Positions 2,941 to 27,120 of a DNA stretch of 64,000 nt are shown in pieces (position 1 is the stretch's first letter; the number at the start of each line of letters is the position of its first letter). The stretch covers positions 55,778,091-55,842,090 of the forward strand of contig NC_053044.1 of assembly GCF_003473485.1 (NCBI RefSeq), read 5' to 3'. Origin of the DNA: Medicago truncatula. Lineage: Eukaryota > Streptophyta > Magnoliopsida > Fabales > Fabaceae. The translations under genes and the position numbers were made by a program. A model generated the notes under the pieces. That model worked only from the letters and a program-made list of their open reading frames with translations. It made no database searches and had not been told where the DNA came from.

Positions 2941-3316
2941 TATTTGGGCCCAACAATACATTAGTCTACGTACGCAACACGAAGTCGCGTAATACGAACA
3001 AAAGAGAAGAAAATCAAGAAAGATCGACCAAAGACAAAGATCAAGAAGAAGGAAGATGAAGAAAATCCGTACACCCAGTTTTGTTTAAAGTACCACAGTG
3101 AGTGATTCTCATCTCATCTTGCTTTTAATCGTTTCATTCCTCTACAATCACATTATTCTTCCCACCCCATCACTAATTTTTTTATTAACACATTCTCTCT
3201 TGAATGTTCGATTGATACTGATATAAATTCAATTATTATTATTATTAAGATAATACTCTTTCTCCTCCTAACCCTATCGGTAACCGTGAAATTAATCTTG
3301 AATTCAATCCTCACAT
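2941..3316 (+). promoter_or_regulatory. Promoter/5' leader of DNA glycosylase gene
   Basis: GC content rises (GGGCCCAACA near 2947 resembles a plant site-II-type element), followed by a purine-rich stretch and a pyrimidine-rich leader before the ATG. No clear TATA box. The transcription start is not determined. Confidence 0.35.
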
Positions 3317-4345
3317 ATGGGCGAAGACACACAACAACAACCTCAGCCACAACCACAAGGGGTTTCTTCCGACAACACAATCTCCGCCACCACCGCTGTC
3401 GACTCCGTCCAAACTATTATCCCCGTCGAATCCGAACTGAGCAATGTTCCACCACACACCAAAGCCCCTGCCACAAAAATGCCCCTCCGTCCTCGTAAGA
3501 TCCGAAAGGTCTCGCCCGACCCAACAACCTCCGAATCTCAATCGGAAACCCTAAAACCACCCAATTCCACCGCCGCCGGAAAATCCAACGGACGGAACAA
3601 CAAAACGGTTCAACCACCACAACAACGAACCCTAGCTGTTCCGAAAATCGTACCTAGGTCACTTTCGTGCGAAGGTGAAGTTGAGATTGCAATTCGTTAC
3701 CTTCGTTCCGCAGACCCACTCTTATCACCTCTCATCGACATTCATCAACCACCCACGTTTGATAATTTTCAAACCCCATTCCTTGCCCTAACCCGTAGTA
3801 TCTTGTATCAACAACTCGCTTTTAAAGCCGGTACTTCCATCTATACGCGGTTTATTGCTCTTTGTGGTGGTGAAGCTGGTGTTGTTCCTGATAATGTTCT
3901 TGCCCTAACTGCTCAACAGCTTCGTCAAATTGGGGTTTCTGGTAGAAAAGCTAGTTATCTTCATGATTTGGCTAGGAAGTATCAGAATGGGATACTTTCT
4001 GATTCCGCTATTGTAAATATGGATGATAAATCGCTTTTCACTATGCTTACTATGGTTAATGGGATTGGTTCTTGGTCTGTTCATATGTTTATGATTTTCT
4101 CACTGCATAGACCGGATGTTCTTCCGATTAATGATCTTGGTGTTCGGAAAGGGGTTCAGATTCTTTATAATCTTGATGACTTGCCTCGGCCATCTCAGAT
4201 GGATCAATTATGTGAGAAGTGGAAGCCTTATCGGTCGGTTGCTTCATGGTATTTGTGGAGGTTTGTTGAAGCAAAGGGAAGTCCTTCGACTGCTGTGGCT
4301 GTTGCCACTGGCAACGGCTTGCAACAGCATGAGCTGGACCACCAT

Positions 4346-4377
<32 letters not shown>

Positions 4378-7001
4378 TTCACAACAACCAATTATGGATC
4401 CCATGAATAACATGTTTAATATGGGGTAAGATGTGTGTGTGTGTGTGCGTTTAATTGAAATAGATTGGTCTGAAAATTGTCGAAGTTGTTTGCTTAAGAT
4501 TGCATATGTTGGTGATAATGATGGCTATCTACAATAGCAATCAAGTATTTGTCATGTGCTTAAGAGCTTTCATGTCTTAGTCTTCCTTTTAGGCATAGGT
4601 GTTCATCATCCTTTTTAGGTAATTCAAGGCATTGCATAGAAATGTAAAAACAGAATTTGGAAAAAATGTATGAACTCGAAACAAGTGAATGTAGTTTTGG
4701 CCAATTTTCATTTACAACTTTTTAATTCTCTCTAGGTGTGCTTCTTTGAACTAAATGAAGATAAACTTCCTTTGTTATCTTTATTGCACTTCTTGTTCAG
4801 TCACTCTCCTCAAGATATGAACTTTCATCTTATGGGGCATGCTGTATTCTTTCTTTTCTTTCATTTGACAAAGTAAGCCTTCAGGAATCACACCTAATGG
4901 TTGCCTATCATGATTTTCATGTTCTATTATTATTGTTCAATTTCCGTTCACAGTTTGATATATCTTTTGATCTTGTGATTAATTGAATAGCAATATCGGT
5001 ATTAGAAATAATTTGTCATGGCTTTTGAAATGGGGGATTAACCAGGGGACATCTCTTGATTCATGAGTCTATATTGTATATATAGGCGAAAATTACATGC
5101 TCTGTCATTCTCTTGTATTGCTAGTGTGTAGATTTAATGAAGTGAGGAAGCCAAGATTCGTATAGAAAAGCATGATATTAACCTATAAGATAGGAAGTGA
5201 AAGAGCAAAGAATCATAACTTATGGCATACAATCAAGAGTTGATTCCTTGAATAAAATTTGATTGACTAAATATGGAGCCGTGAATACATGGCTTATGAC
5301 TTCGGGACTGAAAGAAGTGCTGTGAATTTGTAATTTTTTCAATAAAAAATAAGTGCTGTGAATTTGTAATTTTTTCAATAAAAAATAAGTGAGAGTGGTT
5401 CATTGTTACCATCTATGAAGCACGGACACAGACACGGACACCGGACACGACATGGATAATAATTTGAGAAAATTACATAATTCAATGTAATCATAGGTGT
5501 CGTGTCGGTGTCGGTATCGGACACCGACGCGTGTCCAACACCGGGACACACCTATTCCGAGGAGTGTCCGTGCTTCATAGGTTACCATATTCATCTTGTT
5601 AGGGATGAGTTGACACTCACCTTTACACACAATTATTACATGATTATGAATAGTATATTCTTGCCAGAAAGTTTCTAGGCTGAAATGTATATTATATTAT
5701 TATGTTTGCCTGAGGAATGAAGATGTGAGAATTTTTATTCATCATTTTAATCTCTTTGATTAGGCTTCAAGTTGAGTTTCAGTTGAGACTTGTTCTAATG
5801 AATGCCTAAATCAGACTAAATTTTTTTAATAGAGAAGGCAGTGAATGAAAAAAAATTGTGTTTGCAAGTTAAAAGGAATTGACGCACAACACGAGATGCA
5901 TGTTTAATAGAGAAGCTAAATTTTTTTTACATTGCAAGTCTAGTGGTTTAGTGTTGAACCTATTTGTTAATTGTGCAAGTTACGCTCTAGGATGGCCTGA
6001 GTTAACTTTTTGTCCCTTTAATTTTTTCAAGGCATCTCAGATGATCTGTAATTGGTCAATCAAATGTGGTCATTTTTAGATATAATATCGTCTTTGTTTT
6101 GCTTTATTTGGTCAATCAAATGTGTCCTTTTCAGTAGTCTATTTGTTTGTATGTTTCTCTTTGTTCATTAATGAATTTGATTTTTTAATTAATCTGATTT
6201 GATCATTGACATTCGAATTGGGTATACATCTTTTCACTAATTAGCTGCTGCGTGACCTTCGTTTTTTTGGGATTTCGCATAAATTATTTACCATATTTTG
6301 AAAATTTACTGTTCAGTCTCTTCATAAGTTATTGGTTGGTGGTCTAGTAATTGGACTCATCCTGCGTGTATTTCTATATGCACCGACACACACTTCAGAT
6401 TGAAGGCATGTCTAGTGTTGTTTCATAGGTGTGTTTCATAGATGTATTTAGTTGAGAGAAACAGTTTCTCTAATGTAGCCCAGTGTCTGAAGCTAAGCAT
6501 CAAAACCTGCATTAGAGATTATTTTGTCAGTAGCATAGCATATACCTTAAGAACTGTTGTCCTAACTTTATTAAGACAAAAAAGAGTTAAATGACGTGAA
6601 GTTCTTTCTTCTGCTGGTTGTACTTCTATAGCCTCCTATATATGTTGTACTTCTATAGCCCCTCTCCTGTTGTCTGTTTGCTTTGGATTATGGTTTATGC
6701 TATAGTATGTGCTTCAATGGTGTCAACTGCAAAAAAAAAAAAAAAAAAAAATTATTGTTCATTTGTCCGTGTTTTATAATTATATATGCAAAGTTCAGTT
6801 ACTTAGAAGGAGGAGGGGTTTGTGAATTCATTGGTATAAAAAAACTTGTTTTCACCTTTGTCCTTCGTTTCTGTTCTCGATCTTCTCGGAGGTTTGTAAT
6901 TAAGTATATAGTTCAACTTAATAATTTAATTGTCATGCATATCTCTCATTATTGTGTCTCATTCTGATGCTTGTAGGGCTGCCTGTGCTTGGGGACAGTG
7001 A
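3317..7001 (+). CDS. DNA-3-methyladenine glycosylase (AlkA/HhH-GPD type)
   Basis: Exon 1 (3317-4425) and exon 2 (6977-7001) give 377 aa. Residues 1-110 are a low-complexity Gln/Pro-rich, basic N-terminus, probably nuclear-directing. Residues about 120-330 are the HhH-GPD glycosylase fold, with the hairpin VNGIGSWSVHMF (247 onward) and LPINDLGVRKG, where D273 sits at the catalytic-aspartate position of AlkA. The enzyme class excises alkylated purines by hydrolysing the N-glycosidic bond. A polyglutamine tract coded by pure CAG (about 4347-4375) precedes the C-terminus. The first exon's donor GTAAG overlaps an in-frame TAA: unspliced RNA would stop at 4429 (370 aa), while splicing adds GAACAWGQ, an ending I remember from plant homologues. 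The 2.55-kb intron holds a MITE and a tandem repeat. High confidence for the family, moderate for the last exon. Confidence 0.9.
4347..4375 (+). repeat. CAG trinucleotide repeat (polyQ)
   Basis: About nine uninterrupted CAG codons inside the glycosylase exon. A pure-codon run is expected to be length-variable between accessions. Confidence 0.85.
5315..5390. repeat. Tandem duplication, 36-bp unit x2
   Basis: Two perfect adjacent copies (5315-5350, 5351-5386) of a unit beginning AAGTGCTGTGAATTTG, with the first bases repeated once more. It lies in the glycosylase intron. Identity suggests a young duplication. Confidence 0.85.
5413..5580. mobile_element. hAT-type MITE, 168 bp
   Basis: Perfect 17-bp terminal inverted repeats (CTATGAAGCACGGACAC and its complement) are flanked by an exact 8-bp duplication GTTACCAT (5405-5412, 5581-5588). 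The inner arms, rich in GGACACGACAC-like motifs, extend the foldback. Eight-bp duplications point to hAT-driven mobility. No coding capacity. Confidence 0.88.
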
Positions 7002-23382: not shown

Positions 23383-23391
23383 TAATTTAGT
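23383..23391. repeat. Target duplication of Mutator-like element, left
   Basis: TAATTTAGT, identical to 27112-27120. Confidence 0.9.
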
Positions 23392-23455
23392 GAGAATTGC
23401 TGTTTGCACATTACATAAGGTTGTGCCACATGAGTATTTTACGAAAATGCCCTTC

Positions 23456-23545
23456 GGCAGTTAACTGTCGAAGTTTTAGTAAACCGGTGGCAGTTAACTA
23501 CCGAAAGTTAACTGCCGACGAAAACTTCGGTAGTTAACTGCCGAG
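23456..23545. repeat. Left subterminal palindrome cluster
   Basis: CGGCAGTTAACTGTCG, GGCAGTTAACTACCG, AAGTTAACTGCCG and CGGTAGTTAACTGCCG follow each other within 90 bp; the matching cluster in the right TIR is at about 26974-27048. Each is a nearly perfect palindrome centred on GTTAAC. Confidence 0.85.
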
Positions 23546-23956
23546 GAAATCTGATTGCAGGCAGTAGTGAGCTCTGCATCATTCTAAAACATTTCCAAGC
23601 CTTTTTTCGGCCAGTTTTTACCTGTAATTAAACCAGAGCATTTCGAAAGGCAAACCAATTCATACAACATTGAAACTCGGACATAAACAATATAAATACA
23701 ATATCTTTTACAATTGACCATAATTAAATCAAACCGACATTTTGTTCAAATTACACAAACGTTTGAAATTTATCATAACGGTTCAAATAACAAAAAAATA
23801 TTAGCGCAAATGCAAAACTTAATTAAACCAATATTTTTATACATTAAACAAAGTAAAAAATCTCATGAAATTAAAAATAATGTCATCAAAGTACAAATAT
23901 ACAAATCAATGTCATGAAAAACTAAAAAACAAGTCCTAACAAAAAAAAAATTCCTA

Positions 23957-26190
23957 CTACTGGTCCTGGTCCTGGTCCTGGTCCTGCTGATGGTGCCTCC
24001 TCCTCGGCCTCTGGCCTCGCCTCCTGGTCAAGATTGGCGCGATCTGCTCCCTCATATGGGTCATGGCCTGAAACCACTGCTAAGGGGTCATGTTCATGAC
24101 CTCCTGGCCCAACTGTGCATCACCGCCGCTAACCATGTCGTAGGTGTCAGGCGAGCTTCTCGCCTCGTACCGCTCCCACTTGTCTGCAATGATCTGCTCT
24201 TCATTTGCAGGCCTCGGAAGATCTCCATTGAGAGGTGGCAAAATCTGAGGGTGAGACACCCTAGTCTACCATAGCATATAGCCATCAGCCATCCGCCATG
24301 TCTACTCTCCTGCCTGCTCACCCCAATCGTCCGCCTTAAGCGTGTGAGTGCGGAAGTCGACGAACGCCTGCACAATGTAAGGGAGTGGGAGCTCTACTCT
24401 GCACGTATCTATACTACCTCAAAACCCTCTCGGACAAGTGACGGTACACCCTACGGACACCGCACATTATCCAGCCAGAATACCAGAAAACCTCCTCGAA
24501 GTCCTGGATCTCTCTGTGCTCCTCGTACGGCCTCCAGCATACGTCATCTAAATACGATCAAGCAGTGACCGATACGTGATCCCCTCCCCGTGACCCTTCT
24601 GGAGCTTCCACCTTGCTCTAACCGGATAGTTTTTCATGTAGTCAGTGTTGGGATCAACACTGTAAAACCCAGAAAAATGCGCCAAAAACCATGTTTGCAC
24701 AAACCAAACAAATAACATTTATAAATTATTACGCACGGAAAATATAAAAAAATAAAAGTTAACTAAAAAATAAAGTTAACAAAAAAATAAAATATAAGTT
24801 TTCTTACAGTGAGCAGTGTCACGCTCCCCCCAAGAGCTCTGTCTCCAGGCCTACACGCATCAGCTAACTCGTCGTATAAGTAAGCGAGTGTCATCCCTCC
24901 CCATGGTCGTCAGATATACCAACTCGATGCGCTTGTTGCTTCTATCGCCAAACAACAAGCATCCGACCAAGTAGAGAAGGTAACACCGGACGCAGTAAGT
25001 CCTAACCCTCGCCAGCTCCTCAAGCTCCTCTGGATCCTCCGTACCAGCCAATAAGTTGGCCCTACCAAGGTACGTGGTATAAAAGTCCCTCAGCCTCGGG
25101 TAGCTAATGTACCCACCGTACTCCTGCCCGCAAATCTTTTCCGCCTCCTGCTGCGACACACCCAGATGCCTCATAAGTAGTGCCGCTCCCTCATGTTTCG
25201 GCATCTTCTTCCCATGACTCAACATCCGCCCCTCAATCGGTAGATGCGTGAGACATGCGACATCATCCAATGTCACAGCCATCTCCCCCATGGGCATGTG
25301 AAAGGTGCTGGTCTCAGGATGCCACCTCTCGCATAAAGTCATCAGCAGGGCATGAGGCACGGTGGAGTACCCCAAGTAATGTAACCCGCTCTGCCTAAGC
25401 GGATCCCAAAACCAATTCTCATTCTTGTTTGGGCGTCCGAGAGTGAGGATCTTAGCCCCATGATTAATTGGTTTAACCACACGGAGTTTACGAACCTGAA
25501 ATAATAAAAAAAATATATAGTTTAAACAAACACACATATGAAGAAAACAATTAAACATAAAAAATAGAATTAAAAAAAACACATAAAAGTGAATATAATA
25601 AATAAACAAACACACATTTAAAGAAAATAATTAAACATAAAGAAAAAGAATTTAAAAAAAACATATAAAAGTGGATATAAAAATTAAACAAACACACATT
25701 TAAAGAAAATAATTAAACATAAAGAAAAAGAATTTAAAAAAATTACAATTACATTATCTGAATTATACCAGAGTGGCAACGCCACATGACTGGCATAAGA
25801 GTGGAGTAAAGATAAGTCTACCGGTCCACCAGGAAAGGGAGGGTCCACAGGTAACACCTTCGGTGCAGCAGCTGCTGCAATGTCATCATCGTCTCCTACA
25901 TGCTGCTGATGTGGTATATGATCCTGGTCATACCCACCATCAGTCACATCGTGGTGTACCTGATCCTGATAATTCAGGTACTCCACCCCAGACTGGTCAA
26001 CAAGCTGTGACGGGTCAACTACCTGTGACTCCTCAGGCTGTGTAGCCTGAGAGCTCCTTGAACCATCTCCCCTCCGACCTCTACCCCTCTTTGGGATGTG
26101 GCCGCTCTGCTTCTCCCTCCGGTGGCTCTGAGTCATCGCACACCTACCACCAATCATCTTAGATGGATCAATGGGGTCCTGATCGGCCAT
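23957..26190 (-). pseudogene. Plant mobile domain (PMD, MAIN-like) gene inside the Mutator-like element, decayed
   Basis: Exon 1 (25753-26190) begins MADQDPIDPSKMIGG and is charged and disordered, with an acidic DDDDIAAAAA patch. Exon 2 starts at 25495 and holds the PMD core: RPNKNENWFWDPLRQSGLHYLGY, then WHPETSTFHMPMGEMAVTLDDVACLTHLPIEG. It continues in another frame near 24910 (MTLAYLYDELADACRPGDRAL...). A last part (24700 to 23957) has the FSGFYSVDPNTDYM and EVFWYSGWIM type motifs and ends in a repeated DQDQDQ. PMD proteins (MAIN/MAIL relatives) are known both as host silencing and genome-stability factors and as passengers of transposons. At least two frame changes and one in-frame stop in the C-terminal half make a full product unlikely. 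The exon 1-exon 2 half could still be translated to about 360 residues. Confidence 0.82.
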
Positions 26191-26973
26191 ATCTACACAT
26201 CATTCAACTTATACATTCAACCACTTTATCAAAAACACTAAACTTAAACATAACCTAAACTTTCACATTCAACCTAAACATAACCTAAACATAACCACTT
26301 TCACATTCAACCACATGACCAAAATAAACACATTGATTGAACCTAAACATTATCATACACACTATCATTCACATTCAAACGTAAATAATCAAATGCATTA
26401 TCATACACATTCAACCTAAACATAACCTAAACTAAACATAATTCAATATACACATTCAACCTAATTCAATATACACGTTTTCAATATGCATTCAACCTAA
26501 TTCAATATACACTTTTTCGAATTACAATCAAGATCATATCCATAACCTAAACTAACTAAATAATCAAGAAAATTGTCATTGACACATTTTATCAAACACT
26601 TTGTGTGCAAAGTATCAAACATACTCAAAATGTGTTCTTTTGCCACCATTCAAAACCACATTATACTCTAACATCATTCAATCATCAATTAAAGCAACTA
26701 CATTCAATTATAAACTACATGCACTCATAAAAAATTCAATTCCTACATCAACCCTAACCACATCAAAACTACCATTTTTTTTAAAAAAAAACCTACCCAA
26801 GCTAACATTATGATTACAAATGAGTCAAGATACTTACTTGTGATTAAATGGAAATGATGCACTTGATTTTGCTGAAAATTTGAAATTGAAGAAGAAGTTG
26901 GTTTGGAAAATATTTGAAGAATGAAGCAATACTCAGAAAACTGAGTTTCTGCTTCTGTTATGTTCAATTTGCA
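26191..26973. other. 5' region of the PMD gene inside the element
   Basis: A/C-rich, with many degenerate repeats of CATTCAACCTAAACATAACC between 26200 and 26530. Probably the promoter/leader of the minus-strand PMD gene. Confidence 0.55.
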
Positions 26974-27111
26974 TCGGCAGTTAACTGCCGAGGAAATCCT
27001 CGGTAGTTACTGCCGCCGGTTTACTAAAACTTCGGCAGTTAACTGTCGAAAGGTATTTTGGTAAAGTACTTGTATGGCACAGCCTTATCAAATGTATAAA
27101 CAACAATTCTC

Positions 27112-27120
27112 TAATTTAGT
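27112..27120. repeat. Target duplication of Mutator-like element, right
   Basis: TAATTTAGT, identical to 23383-23391. Confidence 0.9.

Follow-up and report, generated by a model that had tools for sequence, protein, structure and literature searches.

The maize transposon MuDR carries two genes in convergent layout. The gene names mudrA and mudrB appear in PMC4486113. According to Ikeda et al. (2017; PMC5418596), a plant mobile domain of the PMD-C type is fused to the transposases of Mutator-like elements (MULEs) in several grasses and in Amborella, and a rice MULE is cited there as the first description of PMD in such elements. The same paper had already proposed an anti-silencing role for the PMD of MULEs, an idea that also appears for transposon PMD in a review (PMC8616336), and VANC offers a worked example of anti-silencing (PMC10398659, PMC6419827). 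Table 1 of Dupeyron et al. (2019; PMC6446971) assigns PMD, often in antisense position, to several groups of plant MULEs. That MULEs contain PMD, which often runs opposite to the transposase gene, is thus known already, and so is the guess that it counters silencing. Why transposons carry PMD is treated as open in the PMD and MULE literature consulted, as is the question of whether the host proteins MAIN and MAIL1 act with or against transposon PMDs.

The element described here lies in a 64-kb window (the whole stretch of DNA analysed, C3:55778091-55842090) of a genome searched as 429.9 Mb in 42 contigs.

A complete, non-autonomous element with a dead PMD gene

The element occupies positions 23392..27111 of the window. 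Both its ends and its target-site duplication are complete, and the boundaries given by the first-pass annotation proved exact, as did the long inverted ends and 9-bp duplication described there. The terminal inverted repeats consist of two 103-nt arms that are 84% complementary to each other, the left arm (23392..23494, plus strand) on the 3' side of the PMD gene and the right arm (27009..27111, minus strand) on its 5' side. They are flanked by two copies of TAATTTAGT, at 23383..23391 and 27112..27120 (no strand assigned), which are identical at 9/9 positions. The left terminal ~400 bp (23392..23787, plus strand) share their end type with the MURA element described below, at its 3' end. Three repeat units of ~82 nt (25481..25724, no strand assigned) lie mostly within the first intron of the PMD gene, and the number of these units differs from copy to copy.

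No transposase is visible within these boundaries. The MULE-domain matches listed (the best 150 of 923 candidates) all fall outside the element, and so do the 75 MURA matches listed for the genome. Among the matches listed, the element has no transposase of its own, the mark of an autonomous MULE, and the earlier description of it as non-autonomous holds to that extent. With other MULEs it shares long terminal inverted repeats, a 9-bp duplication and, in the same-ended element L077, a transposase (PF10551). It is a complete, non-autonomous MULE.

The PMD gene is on the minus strand and has three exons when aligned with its relatives. Exon 1 (25753..26190, minus strand) is open over 146 codons. 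Exon 2 (24808..25495, minus strand) lacks 11 residues found in the family and changes frame near 24902; the minus-strand frame at 24863-25498, which represents this exon, matches Pfam PF10536 with E = 4.9e-20 (72.4 bits, cut-off 34.9). Exon 3 is a remnant (23957..24694, minus strand, its outer extent inferred from the family frame). Its aligned part, 23972-24691, contains six stops in the aligned reading (five at aligned codons in another alignment), and the fragment scores 11.7 bits against PF10536, under the 34.9-bit cut-off. For comparison, exons 2 and 3 of the copy L063 score 99.3 and 43.9 bits. When PMD exon 2 was compared with solved protein structures, no match up to E = 10 was obtained.

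Because of the frame change in exon 2 and the stops in exon 3, the window copy is unable to make the full PMD protein. The gene is a remnant, dead in this copy. The domain of the internal PMD gene named in the first-pass annotation is confirmed. The further proposal that PMD might serve the element that carries it fails for this copy, since without the full protein no such service in cis is given. With its PMD gene lost, the window copy could persist only as a mobile substrate.

Relatives of the element and a MURA-bearing partner

Many other copies with PMD exist. A genome search with PMD exon 2 gave at least 151 matches (150 scored of 818 candidates), and 57 of the 150 listed contain one or more stops within the matched stretch. 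Because only the best candidates were scored in each search (for the PMD profile, the best 117 of 1213), all genome counts are lower bounds. An open, near-full-length PMD gene is present in three of the 32 copies examined (L053, L063 and L065).

The ends of the element were used as separate probes, with 40 candidates scored for each: 40 of 764 for the left 151 bp, 40 of 1146 for the right 301 bp and 40 of 1059 for the left 399 bp. Short second pieces were left out, so that 40 of 48, 40 of 45 and 40 of 53 rows, respectively, were used, and the window's own ends are counted within each set. Every end was traced inward for 8 kb or up to a facing end, and 'nothing' below refers to the matches listed. 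From the left 399-bp ends, 16 of 40 lead to PMD, six to MURA, four to a facing end with neither gene between (three of 1.1–1.7 kb and one of 3.8 kb) and 14 to nothing. The left 151-bp set comprises six ends leading to PMD, ten to a facing end with neither gene (nine of 1.3–1.7 kb and one of 3.8 kb, some elements being counted from both ends) and 24 to nothing. The right 301-bp end adjoins PMD, and here 32 of 40 lead to PMD, two to a facing end with neither gene and six to nothing. Elements with the same ends occur as a 4.7-kb MURA element, PMD elements of ~3.7 kb, fused elements of 8.8 and 10 kb, and deleted forms. An exact 9-bp duplication flanks seven of the ten family elements tested, including that of the window; in the other three it is conserved at 8/9 letters (L021), ambiguous (L002) or not present (L005).

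Two of the deleted forms can be described precisely. Counted in the direction of PMD, L015 (1095 bp, with the duplication ATTTAAGTT) retains positions 2-410 and 3063-3720 of the element, and L021 (1691 bp, duplication 8/9) retains positions 1-915 and 2954-3720. Both are internal deletions of PMD elements. Since duplications flank deleted forms that contain neither PMD nor MURA, an element can move without PMD in cis. Relatives without PMD, of which L010 and L002 are further examples, had been named beforehand as a possible sign that PMD was a chance single capture. Their existence speaks weakly in that direction, but L015 and L021 are derived from elements that once had the gene.

The transposase-bearing relative L077 (2267-6955, corresponding to C3:4024566-4029254) is a 4689-bp element with an exact duplication, ATAGAAAAG. 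It contains a 995-aa open frame, measured from stop to stop, and no PMD. The protein carries a MULE transposase domain (PF10551, E = 6.8e-27), with further Pfam matches above cut-off to ZSWIM1-3 RNaseH-like (1.5e-15) and AFT (4e-7), and matches below cut-off to FAR1-like (5.8e-5) and OTU-like (0.034) families; a SWIM finger gave no Pfam match at E up to 1. The element is 99% identical to another copy. MURA occurs at no fewer than 72 places in the genome (72 of 1312 candidates scored; 72 of 75 rows used, the other three being second pieces of copies counted once), many of them 98–99% identical to the query. In comparisons of five MURA copies (10 pairs), dN is lower than dS in nine pairs and equal to it in the tenth, which is the closest pair.

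The last 383 bp of the L077 element (6573-6955) are 79.8% identical to the left end of the window element over about 400 bp, and across 150 bp the 3' ends of the PMD element L065 and of the MURA element share 94% identity. The first-pass annotation had asked whether an autonomous partner shares the ends; on anatomy, L077 is such a partner. From these likenesses we infer that MURA may move the PMD elements in trans.

Both ends of the window element also contain subterminal palindromes. Four, of the type CGGYAGTTAACTRYCG, are found on the left (23454-23471, 23487-23504, 23501-23518 and 23527-23544) and two on the right (26974-26991 and 27032-27049, no strand assigned), with up to two mismatches each. 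The 64-kb window contains 12 strand matches to the palindrome (six sites), all of them in the ends of the element, compared to a mean of 0 in 100 shuffles. As an exact 16-mer, the CGGCAGTTAACTGCCG-type palindrome has 1195 sites in 430 Mb, counted in any context; the backwards control has 0, and base composition (33% GC assumed) predicts ~0.01 sites genome-wide. The palindromes are present in PMD-less elements too. As candidate binding sites, they could be recognised by a dimeric family protein, either MURA or PMD.

Such sites bear on the possibility that PMD assists transposition in a role comparable to that of mudrB, perhaps by attaching to the palindromes together with MURA, and plays no part in silencing. 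The six palindromes in the terminal regions of the window element are in keeping with this, as is the tail-to-tail layout of the fused elements (next section), which resembles that of MuDR. The function of mudrB, moreover, is called not well defined in PMC4486113. However, elements without PMD have the palindromes as well, and MAIN and MAIL1, which are PMD proteins of the host, function in silencing and gene expression (PMC7156037, PMC5418596). We consider a purely accessory role rather unlikely.

Fused elements and selection on PMD

Among the matches listed, eight MURA-PMD pairs lie less than 9 kb apart, and seven of these have a tail-to-tail arrangement in which PMD lies downstream of MURA. 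If placement were uniform, 0.45 pairs and 0.11 tail-to-tail pairs would be expected, figures that serve as a rough guide only because transposons cluster. In the eighth pair (on C2), the PMD element begins 25 bp past the end of the MURA element and has an exact duplication of its own, TCATTTTTG. Outer ends were sought in six of the seven tail-to-tail pairs, leaving out that at C1:25.68 Mb. Two have both outer ends and exact duplications: C7:49520965-49529788 (AAAATTTTA) and C5:30222347-30232302 (TATAGAGAA), the interior of each being read in part. In the copy at C1:13.8 Mb the MURA-side end alone was found within the sequence read. The copies at C7:21.6, C8:21.2 and C4:1.3 Mb have the PMD-side end; their MURA side is interrupted or cut, and its end was not found in the sequence read. 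Apparently, MURA and PMD can travel together as one unit with a MuDR-like layout: MURA and a convergent second gene within one pair of ends are found in the two fused elements with both outer ends, and not in the window copy.

These two fused elements raise the possibility that the PMD-only elements are internal deletions of a two-gene autonomous element of the MuDR type, with MURA and a convergent PMD, and that selection acted only in that master. The antisense position of PMD relative to the transposase in most of the MUDR group and in others (PMC6446971) agrees with such an origin, and so does the decay of most PMD copies examined. On the other hand, a convergent listed MURA lies within 9 kb of only seven of the 150 listed PMD matches, and the MURA element L077, nearly identical to another copy, is without PMD. 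The junctions also argue against a master. In the fused copies at C7:21.6 and C4:1.3 Mb, the middle holds the MURA 3' stretch minus its last 62 and 97 bp, respectively, and more of the stretch is lost in the C8 copy. A MURA 3' stretch that stops short of its outermost bases looks as if two elements had been fused. In the window element, PMD leads directly into a MURA-type 3' end in the same direction, an arrangement that simple deletion from the fused form would not give.

A tree of 32 copies (FastTree, midpoint-rooted, PMD exons 1 and 2) points the same way. The five fused copies (L043, L057, L060, L070 and L071) fall within a single clade, which they share with copies that lack a listed MURA in their neighbourhood, and the clade of the window copy and the other lineages contain no fused copy. 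For some PMD-only copies, the gene and the adjoining 3' end were both read; L061 and L065, which belong to the clade of the fused copies, have PMD-side 3' ends of their own. Among the matches listed, a fusion of two elements is favoured over deletion from a two-gene ancestor. The tree, the direction in which the shared 3' end lies and the absence of the inner terminus make derivation of the window element by deletion from ancestral fused elements less likely, and we regard the two-gene master as an unlikely source of the PMD-only elements.

Selection on PMD was examined first in 32 copies, 30 from the protein search (including the window copy) and two from fused elements. Pairwise dN/dS is 0.52 at dS <0.05 and declines to 0.29 at dS 0.3–0.5; two pairs beyond dS 0.5 give 0.37. 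Exon 2 gives 0.23–0.26 (~15 disjoint pairs, restricted to pairs with dS 0.15–0.6). The five fused copies have a ratio of 0.43 at low dS. High ratios in these and in the closest pairs are expected if many copies decay after insertion. In the clade of the window copy, eight copies with no listed MURA less than 9 kb away give 0.36–0.40; this comparison leaves out L067, which the tree places in the clade.

Because the choice of 30 of the 32 copies by protein similarity favours low dN, the analysis was repeated on loci found by non-coding 5'-end DNA (30 loci, including the window), using exon 1 only. At least 90 codons of exon 1 are present in 26 of the 30 loci, and 18 of the 26 are without a stop. 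Random sets of ~11 disjoint pairs with pS >0.08 (212 of the 325 pairs) give dN/dS of 0.25–0.35, with a mean of 0.28. Reading this DNA in the two wrong frames yields 1.35 and 1.23, from a single set of pairs per frame. While the family spread, purifying selection acted on the PMD coding sequence, an outcome that the first-pass annotation had named as support for its proposal.

This result also bears on chance capture, in which PMD would be a fragment of a host gene picked up as by a Pack-MULE and without function for the element. Host PMD genes have been proposed as captured by MULEs (Ikeda et al., PMC5418596), and the PMD gene of the window copy is broken. However, the number of copies is high, and the exon 1 ratio is far from those of the wrong-frame controls. 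Such a capture is very improbable, and the class of Pack-MULEs, whose cargo is without coding constraint, was rejected for this element on the same ratio.

A probable two-part family and its place among known systems

Judging from sequence comparison, the window element, decayed and non-autonomous, probably belongs to a two-part MULE family in which MURA acts in trans and PMD helps the family. MURA from one member would recognise the common ends, consisting of the terminal inverted repeat and the CGGCAGTTAACTGCCG-type palindromes, and would then mobilise PMD elements in trans. The PMD elements may have persisted as PMD helps same-ended elements to spread, probably also in trans. Two versions of this help can be envisaged, protection from silencing or an accessory function in transposition, and the benefit to the family in either form is what the selection on PMD may reflect. 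Against the two-part model stand the broken state of most copies, the dead gene of the window copy and the gene-less deleted forms, which are also flanked by duplications.

A stricter division of labour is put forward tentatively, as somewhat doubtful. Here MURA elements would do the cutting, a long-lived PMD-only lineage, maintained by selection, would protect or license all same-ended, palindrome-bearing elements in trans, and occasional fusions would move together. Elements with the same ends that contain MURA only, PMD only, both genes or neither are natural controls, since what PMD does to movement and methylation can be compared from one element to the next. This makes the family well suited to asking why transposons retain a silencing-related PMD gene.

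Among described MULEs, the MUDR, MUDRAVI2 and MDR groups (as given in PMC6446971) are similar in having long inverted ends, a 9-bp duplication, a MURA-type transposase and a PMD that is often antisense, and the fused elements have the layout given there for MuDR-type MULEs with PMD as an antisense second gene. Unlike in those groups, PMD and MURA here are mostly in separate same-ended elements, among the matches listed. The groups mostly have SWIM fingers in Table 1 of that paper, whereas the MURA described here is without one in Pfam. The MULE-encoded PMD-C (PMC5418596) is likewise a PMD carried by a MULE for which anti-silencing has been proposed. However, PMD-C of grasses and Amborella is fused to the transposase, while PMD here is a separate three-exon gene in a legume, mostly with no listed transposase nearby.

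VANDAL21 (PMC10398659, PMC5735166, PMC6419827) is also a MULE with an accessory gene and non-coding tandem repeats. Its accessory protein is VANC, for which these papers report anti-silencing; the accessory here is PMD, for which anti-silencing is a guess. In Medicago truncatula itself, MuTAnT and AutoMuTAnT (PMC4486113) resemble this family in comprising non-autonomous MULEs, a transposase-bearing partner and 9-nt duplications. MuTAnT, however, has ends of type GGGGTTTGC and inserts into TA repeats according to that paper, whereas the ends here are of type GAGAATTG and the target sites are others, and identity with MuTAnT was rejected on these two differences.

A transposase-less PMD lineage with a separate MURA partner did not appear in the titles and abstract openings searched, a body of text to which subscription papers and Repbase do not belong. 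Compared to the systems above, what seems unusual in this family is the existence of transposase-less carriers that kept PMD under selection.

PMD genes elsewhere in the genome

The genome-wide profile search for the plant mobile domain (PMD) places 17 of the 129 listed matches within ~0.24 Mb of the contig that holds the window, outside the window itself (C3:23.03-23.27 Mb). Of these, 13 span nearly the entire profile; their open frames measure 615-803 aa, and a single one of them contains a stop. The remaining 4 are partial. This region is a cluster of predicted PMD genes.

The same search reveals a second PMD group in this genome, with open frames of ~239-242 aa that match profile positions 1-195. 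Among the matches listed, its many copies are scattered over many contigs (for example C8:8562159, C4:27181493 and C7:30500393), and it is perhaps another transposon family.

Features of the window element and its partner

Intron 1 of the PMD gene in the window element contains repeat units of ~82-84 nt (window 25481-25724). The units occur at the same place in relatives of the element, and their number varies from copy to copy.

The partner element at locus L077 carries a 115-aa open frame (6180-6524) between the MURA transposase and the 3' end, for which no Pfam match was found at E up to 1. Separately, residues 768-819 of the transposase frame (L077 2871-5852) show a weak OTU-protease-like match, below the cut-off (E = 0.034).

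The subterminal palindrome

Across the genome the palindrome CGGCAGTTAACTGCCG occurs 1195 times without mismatch, and it may serve to mark the ends of the MULE family to which the window element belongs.
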